This document shows, one piece after another, positions 21,297 through 29,153 of a DNA stretch of 64,000 nucleotides. The stretch is from Candidatus Izemoplasma sp. (GTDB lineage: Bacteria > Bacillota_I > Bacilli_A > Izemoplasmatales > Izemoplasmataceae): the NCBI GenBank assembly GCA_036172455.1, contig JAXKVY010000002.1, forward strand, positions 372,001-436,000, in the 5' to 3' direction. The notes below the pieces were generated by a model. The model was not told the origin of the DNA. It made no database searches and saw nothing but the letters and a program-made list of their open reading frames with translations. The translations under genes and the position numbers were made by a program. How positions within the stretch are numbered: position 1 is the first letter of the stretch; each line of letters opens with the position of its first letter.

Positions 21297-22684
21297 TTAC
21301 CTCCTTTGCCGAGGATGTGTACATTGTTTTAAGGACAATAATGTGGCTAACTCCTCTTCAGTAAACATCTTATGTTTTAAAAGTACTTGCCTTATTGATA
21401 AGTTATTTACCCCTGCTTCTTTAACAATATCAGCCGCTTGTTCGTAGCCAATTATATCAATAAGAGGTATAATGATACTGTGTGATTGATTTAAATTATG
21501 TAGACATCTATCTGTATTGACCACTATTGTATCAATAACAAGTGTACGAAACTTACGAATACCTTTAATCAATAATTTTAGTGATTCTAATAAGGTTTCT
21601 GCAATTAAGGGCATAAAAGCATTTAATTCTGTATTTCCCATCGTTACAGTTTGTTTTATGAGTTGATCATTACTTAATACCCGTTGTCCAATTTGAATCA
21701 TGTTTTCAACAATGACTGGATTCACTTTCCCTGGCATAATGGTAGAACCATCTTGTCGTTTTGCTAATGATATTTCACCGATTCCACCATTTGGCCCAGA
21801 GGAAAGAAATCGTAAATCTTGAGAGAGTTTTATTATGTTACTAGCAACAACACTCAGTAATCCTGAGGTTTCTGTGAATGCATCAAGATTCTGCGTGGCA
21901 TCAATTAAATTATCACTTCGGCAAGTCCGATATGTGTAGCTTGTTTCAATCTAGCTAACATTTTAAAGCCATAAGTTATTGGCGCATTTATACCAGTACC
22001 AATGGCTGTCCCACCGATATTAATATAACGTAGACGTTCCTCTGCTTTATAAATTCGCCAACGATCACGGCTTGTTACATCGGCATATGCTGAAAACATC
22101 TGAGAAGCTAATATGGGTACTGCGTCCATCATTTGTGTTCGACTAAGTTTTAATATGTTGGCATATTCCGTTTCTTTACGTTGAAAAGCCTCTTGCAATA
22201 AACTAAGTTCATCAGCTAGCTCTCTTACTAATCGAATTGATGCGATTTTTAAAGCCGTTGGATAAGTATCATTCGTTGACTGGTGCATATTAACATCATC
22301 TATTGGATGACAATTTTCATACATATGTAAATCATGACCTAAATAGATTAAAGCAACATTCGCTATGACTTCATTAACGTTCATATTAGTACTTGTTCCT
22401 GCGCCACCCTGATACTTGTTGACAACAAATGATTGGTCATACATGCCTGAGAGTATATCATCACACGCTTGAAAAATCGCCTTCGCTTTACTATCATCTA
22501 GATAACCAAGTTCGTGATTGGTTTTCGCAGCACATTGCTTTATTTCCACATAAGCATATATCAATTCTAGACTAACTGTGTCGTCAGACACATTAAAATT
22601 GTCAAGAGACCTCGCTGTAAAAGGGCCATAGTACTGTGTCTTATCTAAGGTAATGTTACCCAATGAATCCGTTAATGTAACCAT
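21297..22684 (-). pseudogene. aspA: Aspartate ammonia-lyase-like gene with a frameshift
   Basis: The gene encodes a fumarase/aspartase-superfamily protein of about 460 residues in two frames. The first part (22684 to about 21914) has DSLG, QGGAGTSTNMNVNEV and MHQSTNDTYPTALK. The second part (about 21914 to 21297) continues DNLIDATQNLD and has the signature GSTIMPGKVNP. The shift lies near 21912-21919, where one base is missing. All catalytic signatures survive, so the loss is recent or a sequencing error. It overlaps hydG by one base (TAATG) and precedes hydF. Aspartase genes recur in hyd maturation clusters, where ammonia supply for the azadithiolate bridge has been considered; its role here is inference. 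Confidence 0.85.
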
Positions 22685-24045
22685 TAGAAAAACAAGTCCC
22701 TTTCGCCTTGAATAATACGGTCTATATTCGTTAACAATTTATTTTTCACTGTAACATGTTTAATATTGTTAGCGTGATTTCTAACAAATTCTAATCCTTC
22801 TTTTTTTAACGTGTCATCTCCATAATCCATAATATATTCCGTTAATGTCATTAAAGCATTTGGCTCACATATATGCCCTATTTTACCACTTTTAGCTAAT
22901 CTCATAAATCGGTCTCCTGTACGTCCATTACGGTAACAGGCTGTACAATATGACGGAATGTGTCCTTTATCCATTAATGCTTTATTGACTTCTAGAACAC
23001 TACGTTCATCAGACAGTTCGAATTGATCAGGTTCATGATGACTCGAGTCATCATGATACCCACCGACATCTGTTTTACTTCCAGCACTGACTTGTGAAAT
23101 GCCATGTTCAATAAGTTCACTTCTAATATTAATCGGTTCTCTTGTGGATAAAATCATCCCAACATATGGTACACTTAAGCGTAAAATTGTTACAAGTCGT
23201 TTAAATTCTTCATCTGAGACCATATGGGGATAGTCTTCCAAAGACATTCCTTCTGCTTTTTTCAGCCTTGGAACACTGATTGTATGGAAACCTACACCAT
23301 ATTTATCTTCTAAGTAACGATTATGTGTAATCAGTGCCATCACTTCAAATTTCCAATCTGATAGACCAAATAACACACCTGCGCCTACATCATCGATTCC
23401 AGCTTCAAAGGCGCGATCGAAAGCATGAAGGTGATAATCATAGTCTCCTTTGAGACTACTTGGATGTTGGTCATAGTAAGCATCTTTATCATAAGTTTCT
23501 TGGAAAAGAATATAGGTTCCAATGCCAACATTTAATAACTTCTTATAGTCTTCGATTGTTGTTGCGGCAATGTTCACATTTATACGCCGAATAGATGAAT
23601 GTTCATAAATCATTTTAATCGCATTGACTACATAATCAATTGCTGTTTGTTTTGGGTCTTCTCCACACTCTAGTGCGAGTCGTTTATGTCCAAGTTTCTC
23701 CAGCTGTTTTGCTTGTTCTTTAATTGCTTCATAAGATAACTTCTTTCTAGTGAAGTGGTTGTCTCTGCGATACCCACAATACTTGCAATTATTCACACAA
23801 AAATTAGATATATATAGTGGCGCAAACATGACAACACGTTCGCCATAAATTTCTTCTTTTATTTGTCCTGCGACCTGATAAATTTTATTCAATTGTAAAC
23901 TATTTTCTGCGTTCAAAAGTACGGCAATTTCGTGTAAAGATAATTGTTGTCTTTTGGCCGCTTTTTGAATAACTTGGTCAATTTCTTCTAGCGTTGGATT
24001 ATTAGCTTCTTCTAGTATTTGATAAATGTGCTTTTTATCGATCAT
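22684..24045 (-). CDS. hydG: [FeFe]-hydrogenase maturation radical SAM enzyme HydG
   Basis: HydG cleaves tyrosine to make the CO and cyanide ligands of the H-cluster. The radical-SAM cluster motif is C83-x3-C87-x2-C90 (CVNNCKYC). The C-terminal auxiliary cluster motif is C367-x2-C370-x22-C393 (CTAC...C), diagnostic for HydG as opposed to ThiH. The start is ATG 24045, with AGAGG five bases upstream; an in-frame start 18 codons earlier lies inside hydE and is unlikely. It overlaps hydE by 11 bases and aspA by one, so translation is coupled throughout. Confidence 0.96.
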   Translation of the reverse strand: MIDKKHIYQILEEANNPTLEEIDQVIQKAAKRQQLSLHEIAVLLNAENSLQLNKIYQVAGQIKEEIYGERVVMFAPLYISNFCVNNCKYCGYRRDNHFTRKKLSYEAIKEQAKQLEKLGHKRLALECGEDPKQTAIDYVVNAIKMIYEHSSIRRINVNIAATTIEDYKKLLNVGIGTYILFQETYDKDAYYDQHPSSLKGDYDYHLHAFDRAFEAGIDDVGAGVLFGLSDWKFEVMALITHNRYLEDKYGVGFHTISVPRLKKAEGMSLEDYPHMVSDEEFKRLVTILRLSVPYVGMILSTREPINIRSELIEHGISQVSAGSKTDVGGYHDDSSHHEPDQFELSDERSVLEVNKALMDKGHIPSYCTACYRNGRTGDRFMRLAKSGKIGHICEPNALMTLTEYIMDYGDDTLKKEGLEFVRNHANNIKHVTVKNKLLTNIDRIIQGERDLFF

Positions 24046-25162
24046 AATATCCTCTTCTTTCAACATCAATATGGTCACCAACTCCAAAGTCTGCGACATG
24101 TTGATAATGTTTTATACGTCCTTGAACACATAAGTAACAGGTGCTGATTGTATCATTCACACAAATTTTATTTTGATATATTTCATAATCCTTTTTAAAT
24201 TCAGTTGGCCCAACATTTGGCATGAATACATTTGCCCCAGCTAAAAGTCCTTCTTCTCTACCTGTTTTATGAACACTTCCTAATGCTGTTGTGCTAGGTA
24301 GTAATACTTTTGGCAACATCAATCTCACTAATGCGAGCATAACTAATGTTTCTGTTAGGGTACCATCTGGGTTATTCTTTAATTTTGTTTGGTTGTGACA
24401 AATGTAAGGACCAATTCCAATCATATGTGGATTAAGGCGTTTTAAATACTGCAAGTCCTTTACAAGATCCTTGTTTCGTTGTCCGGGTAGACCAACCATA
24501 AAGCCAGCTCCTACTTGATACCCAATATCTTTTAAATCAGCCAAACATTGCCTTCTTAAATCAAAGGACATATCCTTTGAATGAATCATTTCATATAATG
24601 ATTTAGATGCTGTTTCATGTCTGAGAAGATATCGATCCGCTCCTGCATTAAACCATTTTTGATAAGTCGCTTTCGAATGTTCTCCAAGTGATAATGTCAC
24701 ACGAGAGTCTGAAAACTTTTGTTTTATTTTCATAATGAGTTGAGTAATGAATGATTCTGTTAATTTAGGATCTTCTCCAGCTTGTAATACAAATGTTCTA
24801 TATCCTAATTCATAGGCTGTTTTGCAAGATTCTAAAATATCGTTTTCACATAAACGATAACGATTAACTGCGTTGTTATATCGACTAATGCCACAGTAGT
24901 AGCATCCTTTTTGACAATAGTTAGAAATTTCTATAAGGGCTCTTAAGAAAACTTTATTCCCATAGAAAGGTAACTTTGCTTCGTAAGCTTGGTTATATAA
25001 ATAGGGTAAAGAGGTGTGATCGATATGATTCAAAATAAATAATAAATCATCAGATGACAAGACTTTATTGGCACGGATTTGTAAAATCAAGTCTTTTACA
25101 CGTGTTTGGATAGATTCACATGTTGTAGTTTTTGACTTGATCATTGGTAGAATATGGGACAT
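24035..25162 (-). CDS. hydE: [FeFe]-hydrogenase maturation radical SAM enzyme HydE
   Basis: HydE is the radical-SAM enzyme acting on the HydG-derived iron synthon in H-cluster assembly. The cluster motif is C83-x3-C87-x2-C90 (CQKGCYYC). A further CYLC pair near the C-terminus may bind an extra cluster, which some HydE proteins have. I choose ATG 25162 because GGAGGTGA lies five bases upstream; a GTG five codons earlier falls within that site. It heads the cluster, after the dnaB terminator. A TATACT -10 box (25182-25187) is present without a clear -35. Confidence 0.94.
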   Translation of the reverse strand: MSHILPMIKSKTTTCESIQTRVKDLILQIRANKVLSSDDLLFILNHIDHTSLPYLYNQAYEAKLPFYGNKVFLRALIEISNYCQKGCYYCGISRYNNAVNRYRLCENDILESCKTAYELGYRTFVLQAGEDPKLTESFITQLIMKIKQKFSDSRVTLSLGEHSKATYQKWFNAGADRYLLRHETASKSLYEMIHSKDMSFDLRRQCLADLKDIGYQVGAGFMVGLPGQRNKDLVKDLQYLKRLNPHMIGIGPYICHNQTKLKNNPDGTLTETLVMLALVRLMLPKVLLPSTTALGSVHKTGREEGLLAGANVFMPNVGPTEFKKDYEIYQNKICVNDTISTCYLCVQGRIKHYQHVADFGVGDHIDVERRGYYDR

Positions 25163-25202
25163 AGATGTCACCTCCACTTACAGTATAGCGTAAGCAAATA
25201 AA

Positions 25203-26618: not shown

Positions 26619-29048
26619 CTATTCTTCAACAACTAATACTTCTATTTTAGCTGTAACATCTTTATGTAGTTTGACATCTACATGATAACTTCCTAAAGAT
26701 TCAATTGGGTCGTCTAATTGAATCTTTCGCTTATCTAAGTCAATATCATGTTGTTTTTTATATTCATCGGCAATTTTCTTGGTATTCACTTTGCCATAAA
26801 GTTTACCTTTTTGACCAAGTTTAACGAATACCTTGACTGGTTTTTTCTCTAGTTGTTTTTTTAACTTCCTCATTTTAGATATCTCTTTTTTCTCATTTTC
26901 TTCTTTTTTCTTTTGTTCCATTTCAAGAGATTGCAGATTTTCTTGTGTTGCTTCAATAGCGATTTTGTTTGTCATAAGGTAATTGGCATACCCATTAGCT
27001 ACCTCAATAACATCGCCTTTTTTACCCTTCCCCCGTAAATCCTTAATTAATATAACTTTCATTGGTTCTTCCTCCTTGACAGCTTGATTTAATACTTGGA
27101 TTAAATCTAATCGAACTTGTTTCATATCTGTTGTTTCTACTTGTGCACCTGCATTATTTAAATGGCCTCCGCCATTAAATTTCTCCATAATTACTTGAAC
27201 ATTAAATCCTTCCAAACTTCGCGCACTAATGCCAACGTAATGCTCATCTAATCGGCCAATGGCAAAGGATGCGACGATGTCTTCAATTTCTAACAAATCA
27301 TCAGCTACTTTAGCCAATAACGTACGATCTGGTTCTAAGTCATCAGGTATCATTACAATGCTAAAACGATGATGGACAACTTCAGCAAGTCCTAGCAATT
27401 GTGACTTCAACTGAATTTCTTGTAATCCTTCACGTAAAATTGTTTTTACTTTGAATGTGTCTGCTCCGTATTTTCTGAGTAATGCACTGGCTTCAAATGT
27501 ACGTGATCCTGTGCGGTACATGAAGTTATTGGTATCAACGATAATACCACTAAGCATAACTGTTGCTTCAAATTTATTTATTTCGATATCTTTATCACTT
27601 AATTCAATCATCTCTGTGATCAGTTCAACACTACTAGATGCATATGGTTCTATATGGGATAATTTTGCTCCACTAATGGCATCACTTAACTTACGGTGAT
27701 GATCAATAATAGCAAAATGTTTAATACGCGTAATAAAACGACCATCGAGTGTTTGACTAAAGGAATGATGATCAAGCAATATGAGTAAATCATCACGTGT
27801 TATATCATCGAGTGCCTCTGATGGCGATACGATATAGTCAAGGATTGTAATATACTCATATTCAATTAACTGTAAAATCTTTTTGACTGTTTTATCAACA
27901 TTGTCTCGGTTAATGACAATATAAGCTTCTTTACCGTAAGCTAATGCGAATTTCAAAGCACCTATTGAGGCACCTAAGGCATCAGTATCTGGTAATTTGT
28001 GTGGTACTATATAGACCTTATCTGTATCTTCAAATAAGTTTTCTAGCCGTTGCATATTGGTTCTTGTTGTAATTTTAGTCCGTTTTTCTGCAGTATTGGT
28101 ATTCCCACCAAAGTACATTAAATCATGATTCTCTAAATTAACAACGATTTGATCGCCACCACGACTGAGTGCTAAATCTAGTGCATCTTGAGCAATGTCT
28201 CCTAGTTTATCATAAGCAATGGAACTACAAGCAATACCCGCAGATAATGTAACTAACAACCCATGTTGGCGTGAGATATCTCCTATTTGAGTTATTATTT
28301 TAAACTCATTTTGAATGAGTTTCATTAAGATATCTCGCTGTAAGACAGCCACTAATTGAGAGTTTGTCAGAGGTGTGATAAAGAAATCATACTCTTCTCC
28401 CCATGCCTCTAATGCTTCCAAATATTTCCCTTGCACAAAGTTCCTATCACTTACATCAAGTTCACTCATGGCATCCTCTAAATTATCTAAGTTCAATTTC
28501 ATTATTGCCGGCATAGAATCATTTAGCTCTCTTCGCCATTTTTCACGATCTGTTACCTCGGTAATGAATAGTGTATTGTCTTCAATATAGACTTGTACTT
28601 CATACTCTTTGCGATATATTTTCGTCACAAATGTGAAGTTTTCATCATGTTTTTCTAACTCTTGGTAGATGTGTTGGTTTAAGACGTCTAATGAGCGATC
28701 TTCTAGGGCATTTTCAAACACTTCACGGGCATTTTTGTTAGACCATTTAATCTCATAATTGTCATCATAAATAACAATCCCGACGGGCATATCTTCAACA
28801 AGACGTTCTTCAACTAGCCGTTTGCGATCAAGTAATGATTTTGTATCGGTTAATTTTGTTTTTAACCATTTTATGCGTAAGGTTTTACGGTGATGCGAAA
28901 ATTGCAACACCATCCACACGACTAAAATAAGTGCTATACTGCTTAGTGATAGCACAAAAAATGGAATATCCCGATATATGATATTAATGATTATAACAAT
29001 TGCGATGAATAGAAATGGATATATCTTTTCAAACCATGCTTTCATCAT
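26619..29048 (-). CDS. gdpP-rplI: GdpP c-di-AMP phosphodiesterase fused in frame to ribosomal protein L9
   Basis: One 809-codon frame contains two normally separate genes. Residues 1-662 are GdpP: two membrane helices (about 8-50), a PAS-like domain, a degenerate GGDEF domain and DHH/DHHA1 phosphodiesterase domains with PDTDALGA, D449-H-H and GGHLNNAGA. GdpP hydrolyses c-di-AMP. Residues 663-809 are complete L9 beginning MKVILIKDLRGKGKKGD. No stop codon lies between them. ATG 27062 has AAGGAGG eight bases upstream inside the GdpP frame, so L9 can also start on its own. Separate gdpP and rplI are adjacent in many Bacillota. A missing stop by sequencing error is possible, although both parts are full length. 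Confidence 0.92.
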   Translation of the reverse strand: MMKAWFEKIYPFLFIAIVIIINIIYRDIPFFVLSLSSIALILVVWMVLQFSHHRKTLRIKWLKTKLTDTKSLLDRKRLVEERLVEDMPVGIVIYDDNYEIKWSNKNAREVFENALEDRSLDVLNQHIYQELEKHDENFTFVTKIYRKEYEVQVYIEDNTLFITEVTDREKWRRELNDSMPAIMKLNLDNLEDAMSELDVSDRNFVQGKYLEALEAWGEEYDFFITPLTNSQLVAVLQRDILMKLIQNEFKIITQIGDISRQHGLLVTLSAGIACSSIAYDKLGDIAQDALDLALSRGGDQIVVNLENHDLMYFGGNTNTAEKRTKITTRTNMQRLENLFEDTDKVYIVPHKLPDTDALGASIGALKFALAYGKEAYIVINRDNVDKTVKKILQLIEYEYITILDYIVSPSEALDDITRDDLLILLDHHSFSQTLDGRFITRIKHFAIIDHHRKLSDAISGAKLSHIEPYASSSVELITEMIELSDKDIEINKFEATVMLSGIIVDTNNFMYRTGSRTFEASALLRKYGADTFKVKTILREGLQEIQLKSQLLGLAEVVHHRFSIVMIPDDLEPDRTLLAKVADDLLEIEDIVASFAIGRLDEHYVGISARSLEGFNVQVIMEKFNGGGHLNNAGAQVETTDMKQVRLDLIQVLNQAVKEEEPMKVILIKDLRGKGKKGDVIEVANGYANYLMTNKIAIEATQENLQSLEMEQKKKEENEKKEISKMRKLKKQLEKKPVKVFVKLGQKGKLYGKVNTKKIADEYKKQHDIDLDKRKIQLDDPIESLGSYHVDVKLHKDVTAKIEVLVVEE
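27060..27077 (-). promoter_or_regulatory. rplI: Internal ribosome-binding site and start for free L9
   Basis: AAGGAGG (27071-27077) lies eight bases before ATG (27060-27062) inside the fused frame. A protein started here would be 147 residues, the usual L9 length. This could supply free L9 to ribosomes apart from the membrane-tethered fusion. Confidence 0.7.
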
Positions 29049-29073: not shown

Positions 29074-29101
29074 ATTATAACATATAGAAAGGTATTTTCA
29101 A
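29074..29101 (-). promoter_or_regulatory. gdpP::rplI-dnaB promoter
   Basis: TTGAAA (29096-29101) and TATAAT (29074-29079) are 16 bases apart on the minus strand, just beyond the rpsR terminator. Confidence 0.6.
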
Positions 29102-29131: not shown

Positions 29132-29153
29132 AAGACTCATTTGCATGAGTCTT
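29132..29153 (-). terminator. Terminator after rpsR
   Basis: A nine-base-pair stem AAGACTCAT/ATGAGTCTT with loop TTGC is followed by a T-run on the minus strand and overlaps the rpsR stop codon. Confidence 0.85.

Follow-up and report, generated by a model that had tools for sequence, protein, structure and literature searches.

A single gdpP–rplI reading frame in Izemoplasma and related bacteria, with a conserved internal start from which free ribosomal protein L9 may be made

Can one uninterrupted reading frame supply both a membrane-anchored c-di-AMP phosphodiesterase and a free ribosomal protein? The question is raised by the window, i.e. the whole stretch of 64000 nucleotides of Candidatus Izemoplasma sp. 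that we analysed, in which positions 26619–29048 of the minus strand form a single ORF of 809 codons plus a stop, with no stop codon inside. The original prediction was that a GdpP of 662 residues and an L9 of 147 residues are encoded here without a stop between them, and that AAGGAGG precedes the L9 ATG by eight bases within the GdpP frame. Both statements agree with our reading of the DNA, in which the strand, left unmentioned in the prediction, is the minus strand: GdpP (residues 1–662) and L9 (residues 663–809) are each complete within one 809-amino-acid protein, in which the Pfam domains PAS_GdpP, GGDEF_GdpP, DHH, DHHA1, Ribosomal_L9_N and Ribosomal_L9_C follow one another in this order, and the junction DNA reads GTC AAG GAG GAA GAA CCA ATG AAA. 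The features of the locus are listed below.

26619..29048, minus strand: fused gdpP–rplI frame (ORF read and full-length NF011110 match)
27063..29048, minus strand: GdpP part, residues 1–662 (Pfam hits, predicted structure)
26619..27062, minus strand: L9 part, residues 663–809 plus stop (TIGR00158, Pfam N- and C-domains)
27060..27062, minus strand: internal ATG, putative start of free L9 (sequence; start codon conserved in relatives)
27071..27077, minus strand: internal Shine–Dalgarno (SD) AAGGAGG, 8 bases before the L9 ATG, read as Lys-Glu-Glu in the long form
29074..29101, minus strand: promoter-like TTGAAA-16-TATAAT directly upstream of the fused gene (consensus match only)
29132..29153, minus strand: terminator-like hairpin and T run that separate rpsR from the fused gene (consensus match only)

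The neighbours of the fused gene all lie on the minus strand, with rpsF–ssb–rpsR upstream and dnaB 9 bases downstream. The promoter-like site matches the consensus at 11 of 12 positions and has a TG before the −10 element, promoter-like sites being no more numerous in the region of the fused gene than expected by chance. Taken with the terminator-like hairpin that precedes it, this site suggests a transcript start specific to the fused gene, so that L9 may be uncoupled from the rpsF–ssb–rpsR transcript. A separate L9 promoter within gdpP was also considered and rejected, as no promoter-like site lies close to the L9 start and those in the region are at chance level.

The GdpP part has, in order, two N-terminal membrane helices (in the predicted model), a PAS domain, a degenerate GGDEF domain and DHH/DHHA1, which is the architecture of GdpP, and its Pfam hits lie above the cut-offs. 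The catalytic residues are present (His350, Asp354, Asp356, Asp426, Asp449-His450-His451, Asp505 and the GGGH motif at 626–629), and the corresponding motif columns are invariant in all 151 of the fused genes that we collected. Hydrolysis of c-di-AMP by this part would follow from its family membership. The same genome encodes a protein with a diadenylate cyclase domain, through which the bacterium probably synthesizes c-di-AMP.

The L9 model TIGR00158 covers residues 663–809 from end to end with 127 bits (cut-off 58.6), and this L9 is the only one found in the source genome. In the predicted structure (pLDDT 90.5, pTM 0.51) GdpP and L9 are each folded confidently, the latter with an ordinary L9 fold, and their mutual orientation is uncertain; the final DHHA1 helix ends at residue 658 and the first L9 strand begins at 663, leaving a loop of approximately four residues. 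As the distance from GGGH to L9 in fused proteins (mostly 37–40 residues) is similar to that from GGGH to the stop codon in separate GdpPs (30–47 residues), the junction contributes almost no linker. The AAGGAGG site pairs with the anti-SD sequence at −11.4 kcal/mol, a strength attained at 0.5% of the control positions taken from the rest of the gene.

The joining of GdpP with L9 is already known to databases. The NCBIfam model NF011110/PRK14538, named ‘putative bifunctional signaling protein/50S ribosomal protein L9’, has the same domain order, length and joined frame as the window protein and matches residues 27–808 of it over profile positions 52–834 of 838 with 637 bits. The curated cut-off is 707 bits, so that the window protein would go unnamed under NCBI's rule; it is a sister branch of that fusion with identical architecture and not a named member. 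The model is silent on an internal start and on free L9, unlike the two-product reading developed here, and our literature searches, in which subscription journals lay mostly outside coverage, returned no paper that names NF011110/PRK14538 or describes the fusion, an internal start or a dual product. What is new is the evidence for two products, a reading that these sequence comparisons make well supported.

How widely the frame is open was examined in related genomes. The two closest named relatives show 94 and 89% identity and come, like the others, from uncultured Izemoplasma/Izimaplasma and related Mollicutes genomes. Every full-length match in 61 close genomes is a single stop-free frame, so that the comparison of orthologues for which the original prediction had called found every full-length relative in the order open. 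In a class-wide sample of 395 genomes the stop-free full-length matches belong to eight related families of the class (f1, f2, f3, f7, f12, f16, f18 and f22). From all searches together we obtained 151 distinct fused genes; for 146 of these no second L9 was found, the fused L9 being the only one found in such genomes. In other families of the class gdpP and rplI are adjacent or overlapping and are parted by a stop or a change of frame. A sample of 245 genomes of the phylum gave no strong full-length fusion outside the eight families, and the f5 genome G062 carries a stop. The fused genes fall on one side of a single branch of the GdpP tree (support 48, root not inferred), which is compatible with a single origin of the fusion, likely though not proven. 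From this distribution the open frame is judged to be old and widely shared, and the idea that it might be an accidental read-through of an overlapped gene pair finds no support.

Some matches needed individual attention. In Lachnospiraceae, L066/L067 looked like a second fusion, but a TAA stands immediately before the ATG, so these are separate genes. G422 appeared to have two L9 genes, but its fused gene is merely split across two contigs. G139, which is 97% complete and belongs to the family of genomes with a duplicated L9, yielded neither an L9 match nor a GdpP match of full length, although its relatives in the genus carry both; joint loss or a missing contig is possible.

If free L9 is made from within the long frame, its initiation signals ought to be kept as DNA. 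A start codon for L9 is present in all 146 fused genes without a second L9 (ATG in 139, GTG in six and TTG in one), and in all 146 the sequence just upstream of it pairs with the anti-SD at −5.6 kcal/mol or better, with a median of −10.45 kcal/mol; in the median gene, pairing as good as this occurs at fewer than 1% of the other sampled positions. These genes share kinship and are not 146 independent trials. The site is written differently in different lineages (AAG-GAG-G, CAG-GAG-G, GAG-GAG, AGG-GAG, GGA-GGA and GAA-GGT), with varying codon phase and spacing. As the encoded peptide, the phase and the spacing shift while the SD stays, the site is conserved as DNA and not as peptide. In f1, f3 and f7, where it encodes Lys/Gln-Glu, GAG makes up 62 of the 68 Glu codons of the site, where the Glu codon usage of the individual genes would predict 14.7. 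In the Gly-rich junctions of f2, f12, f16, f18 and f22 the single-gene synonymous test was not significant because Gly codons themselves look SD-like, and for these families the case rests on the position of the site, the start codon and the duplicated lineages described below. The view that the SD is a mere by-product of a Lys/Glu-rich linker was rejected for f1, f3 and f7 on the basis of codon choice and of those same lineages. These data point to an internal SD and start codon conserved under selection. At four loci of one genus with genomes of 0.7–1.0 Mb (L082, L083, L084 and L085), the internal site is of the GAAGGTGA type, not AGGAGG, and its pairing energy almost matches that of AGGAGG.

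Five genomes provide a natural control, in that the fused gene is directly followed by a separate L9 gene (G310, G316 and G322 in f7; G134 and G420 in f22). Each set of fused and separate copies nests inside its own fused family in the L9 tree, which indicates two separate duplications; the control therefore amounts to two events, and some of the genomes are of moderate quality (G322 is 71% complete and G310 has 6% contamination). None of the five fused genes retains the internal SD (pairing of −0.1 to −2.3 kcal/mol), and three of them no longer have the L9 start codon (AAG, AAG and ACT in its place); the separate genes begin with ATG and have upstream sites of their own. At L211 and L212 the KEEE peptide of the window is still encoded in the fused linker, but as AAA GAA GAA GAA, which contains no SD. 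That these signals vanish beside a separate L9 is the strongest evidence that the internal start would be the source of free L9 elsewhere. In the L9 tree, the five tandem loci (L206, L209, L210, L211 and L212) show more rapid evolution of the fused copies than of their separate counterparts, the fused branches having lengths of 0.85–1.44.

In our view, one gene very probably gives two proteins, GdpP–L9 and, by internal initiation, free L9, and both are under selection. Translation from the gdpP start would yield a membrane-anchored GdpP with a complete L9 at its C-terminus, and a second start at the internal SD and ATG, in the same frame, would yield free L9 for ribosomes. Internal initiation is the most likely source of free L9, given an SD and start that are conserved and that disappear where a second L9 gene exists, and a fused frame that is never broken, even beside a tandem L9, argues that the long form too is kept by selection. 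The two-product proposal of the original prediction is thus borne out as far as sequence comparison can carry it (conserved in 146 of 146 genes, lost in five of five beside a second L9). That both proteins are produced, and in what ratio, we infer.

What the L9 tail does for the phosphodiesterase is a separate matter, on which the duplicated lineages again have a bearing. Residue Gly24, which is present in 100% of single-copy genes, has been lost in all five fused copies of these lineages and kept in all five separate copies, and the same losses and retentions are seen for Gly90. In their L9 N-domain the separate copies carry a net charge of +2 to +4 and the fused copies one of −2 to 0, the latter being at or below the low end of the single-copy genes. 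The original prediction had suggested that the long form brings c-di-AMP hydrolysis to ribosomes; in a fuller version, the L9 part would tether GdpP to the ribosome or hold ribosomes at the membrane, and so couple c-di-AMP breakdown to translation. The ordinary predicted fold of the L9 part, the retention of L9 sequence in single-copy lineages and the diadenylate cyclase domain protein in the genome are all in keeping with such a tether, but the free product alone can account for the conservation in single-copy genes, and the fused copies relieved by a second gene lose Gly24, Gly90 and the net positive charge of the N-domain. A tail used only for holding ribosomes should retain these features, so their loss speaks mildly against simple tethering and favours a structural or interaction role within GdpP. 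We regard the tether as unlikely overall, and in single-copy lineages it is possible that the tail serves in this way. Our guess is that the tail serves the phosphodiesterase in its structure or its interactions and is not a plain ribosome tether. A fuller form of this idea, which we consider plausible while stopping short of calling it probable, is that the L9 domain was co-opted as a lasting part of the membrane phosphodiesterase with a non-ribosomal role; the duplicated lineages would then have shifted the ribosomal duty to the new L9, and the fused copy would have lost its internal start and its L9-invariant residues while staying under purifying selection.

Alternatively, the fusion might be a neutral relic, with free L9 as the product that matters and the tail on GdpP as a harmless passenger. 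That L9 is dispensable in some other bacteria, rplI being deletable in S. pneumoniae (PMC10576035), and the faster divergence of the fused L9 after duplication would suit such a relic. However, a stop before L9 was found in none of the 151 fused genes, whereas neutrality of the last 12 GdpP codons would predict approximately 113 changes to a stop over 36 tip pairs, a rough estimate derived from synonymous divergence, some of the 12 codons lying in the last GdpP helix. In f1, a single C-to-T change from CAG to TAG would part the two proteins and spare AGGAGG, and it was never seen among the f1 genes. Moreover, beside a separate L9 the fused frame stays open in five of five genes, both L9 domains are still recognized in the fused copy, and dN/dS between close pairs is 0.32 and 0.12. 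These comparisons indicate that the long GdpP–L9 form is itself maintained by selection, and a neutral relic is improbable.

It could also be argued that only the long protein is made, free L9 being released by proteolysis at the junction or L9 acting only in fused form. One open frame and a short junction, with its loop of approximately four residues in the predicted structure, agree with this. It leaves unexplained the conservation of the start codon, the preference for GAG over GAA, the constant SD within a shifting peptide and the disappearance of SD and start in just those genomes that carry a separate L9 gene, and the junction has no conserved cleavage motif; we give it very little credence. 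Lastly, an error of sequencing or assembly that deleted a stop codon, conceivable in a source genome of ten contigs, is refuted by the open frame in 151 distinct genes, some from single-contig genomes.

To return to two products from one gene, their origin can be sketched from unfused relatives. In Streptococcus gallolyticus the ribosome-binding site of rplI lies inside the 3′ end of gdpP, with the genes unfused (PMC6398277), and in S. pneumoniae the two genes have a short overlap (PMC10576035). The unfused Bacillota operon thus has the same adjacency or overlap, with the rplI site within the gdpP 3′ end, but ends GdpP with a stop, whereas the fused gene has none and its L9 start is in frame. 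The internal SD probably derives from such a pair, in which it would already have lain inside gdpP, and later loss of the stop would have joined the frames with almost no linker gained. The earlier remark that fusion by stop loss is easy fits these unfused relatives, which are adjacent or overlapping and often carry the L9 SD at the gdpP 3′ end.

In-frame internal initiation is familiar from the IF2 α, β and γ forms of infB and from the short form of CheA, which share with the fused gene one mRNA, two in-frame starts and a common C-terminus; here, by contrast, the shorter product would be a ribosomal protein, and the longer one a signalling enzyme anchored in the membrane. In Thermus, rpmH and rnpA overlap in different reading frames, and there too a ribosomal protein gene is embedded in or overlaps another, but gdpP and L9 share one frame. 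The locus offers a clean and testable case, with natural controls, in which a ribosomal protein and an enzyme of membrane signalling may come from one gene. A single ‘bifunctional’ protein is what annotation pipelines record, so that a separate L9 product would be missed across a broad range of wall-less and related bacteria, and whether c-di-AMP signalling and a ribosomal protein are physically linked becomes a direct question.

Elsewhere in the window, at 22684–25177 on the minus strand, two radical SAM genes overlap by approximately 65 bases, one of them with a BATS domain; this pair may resemble the HydG/HydE type.
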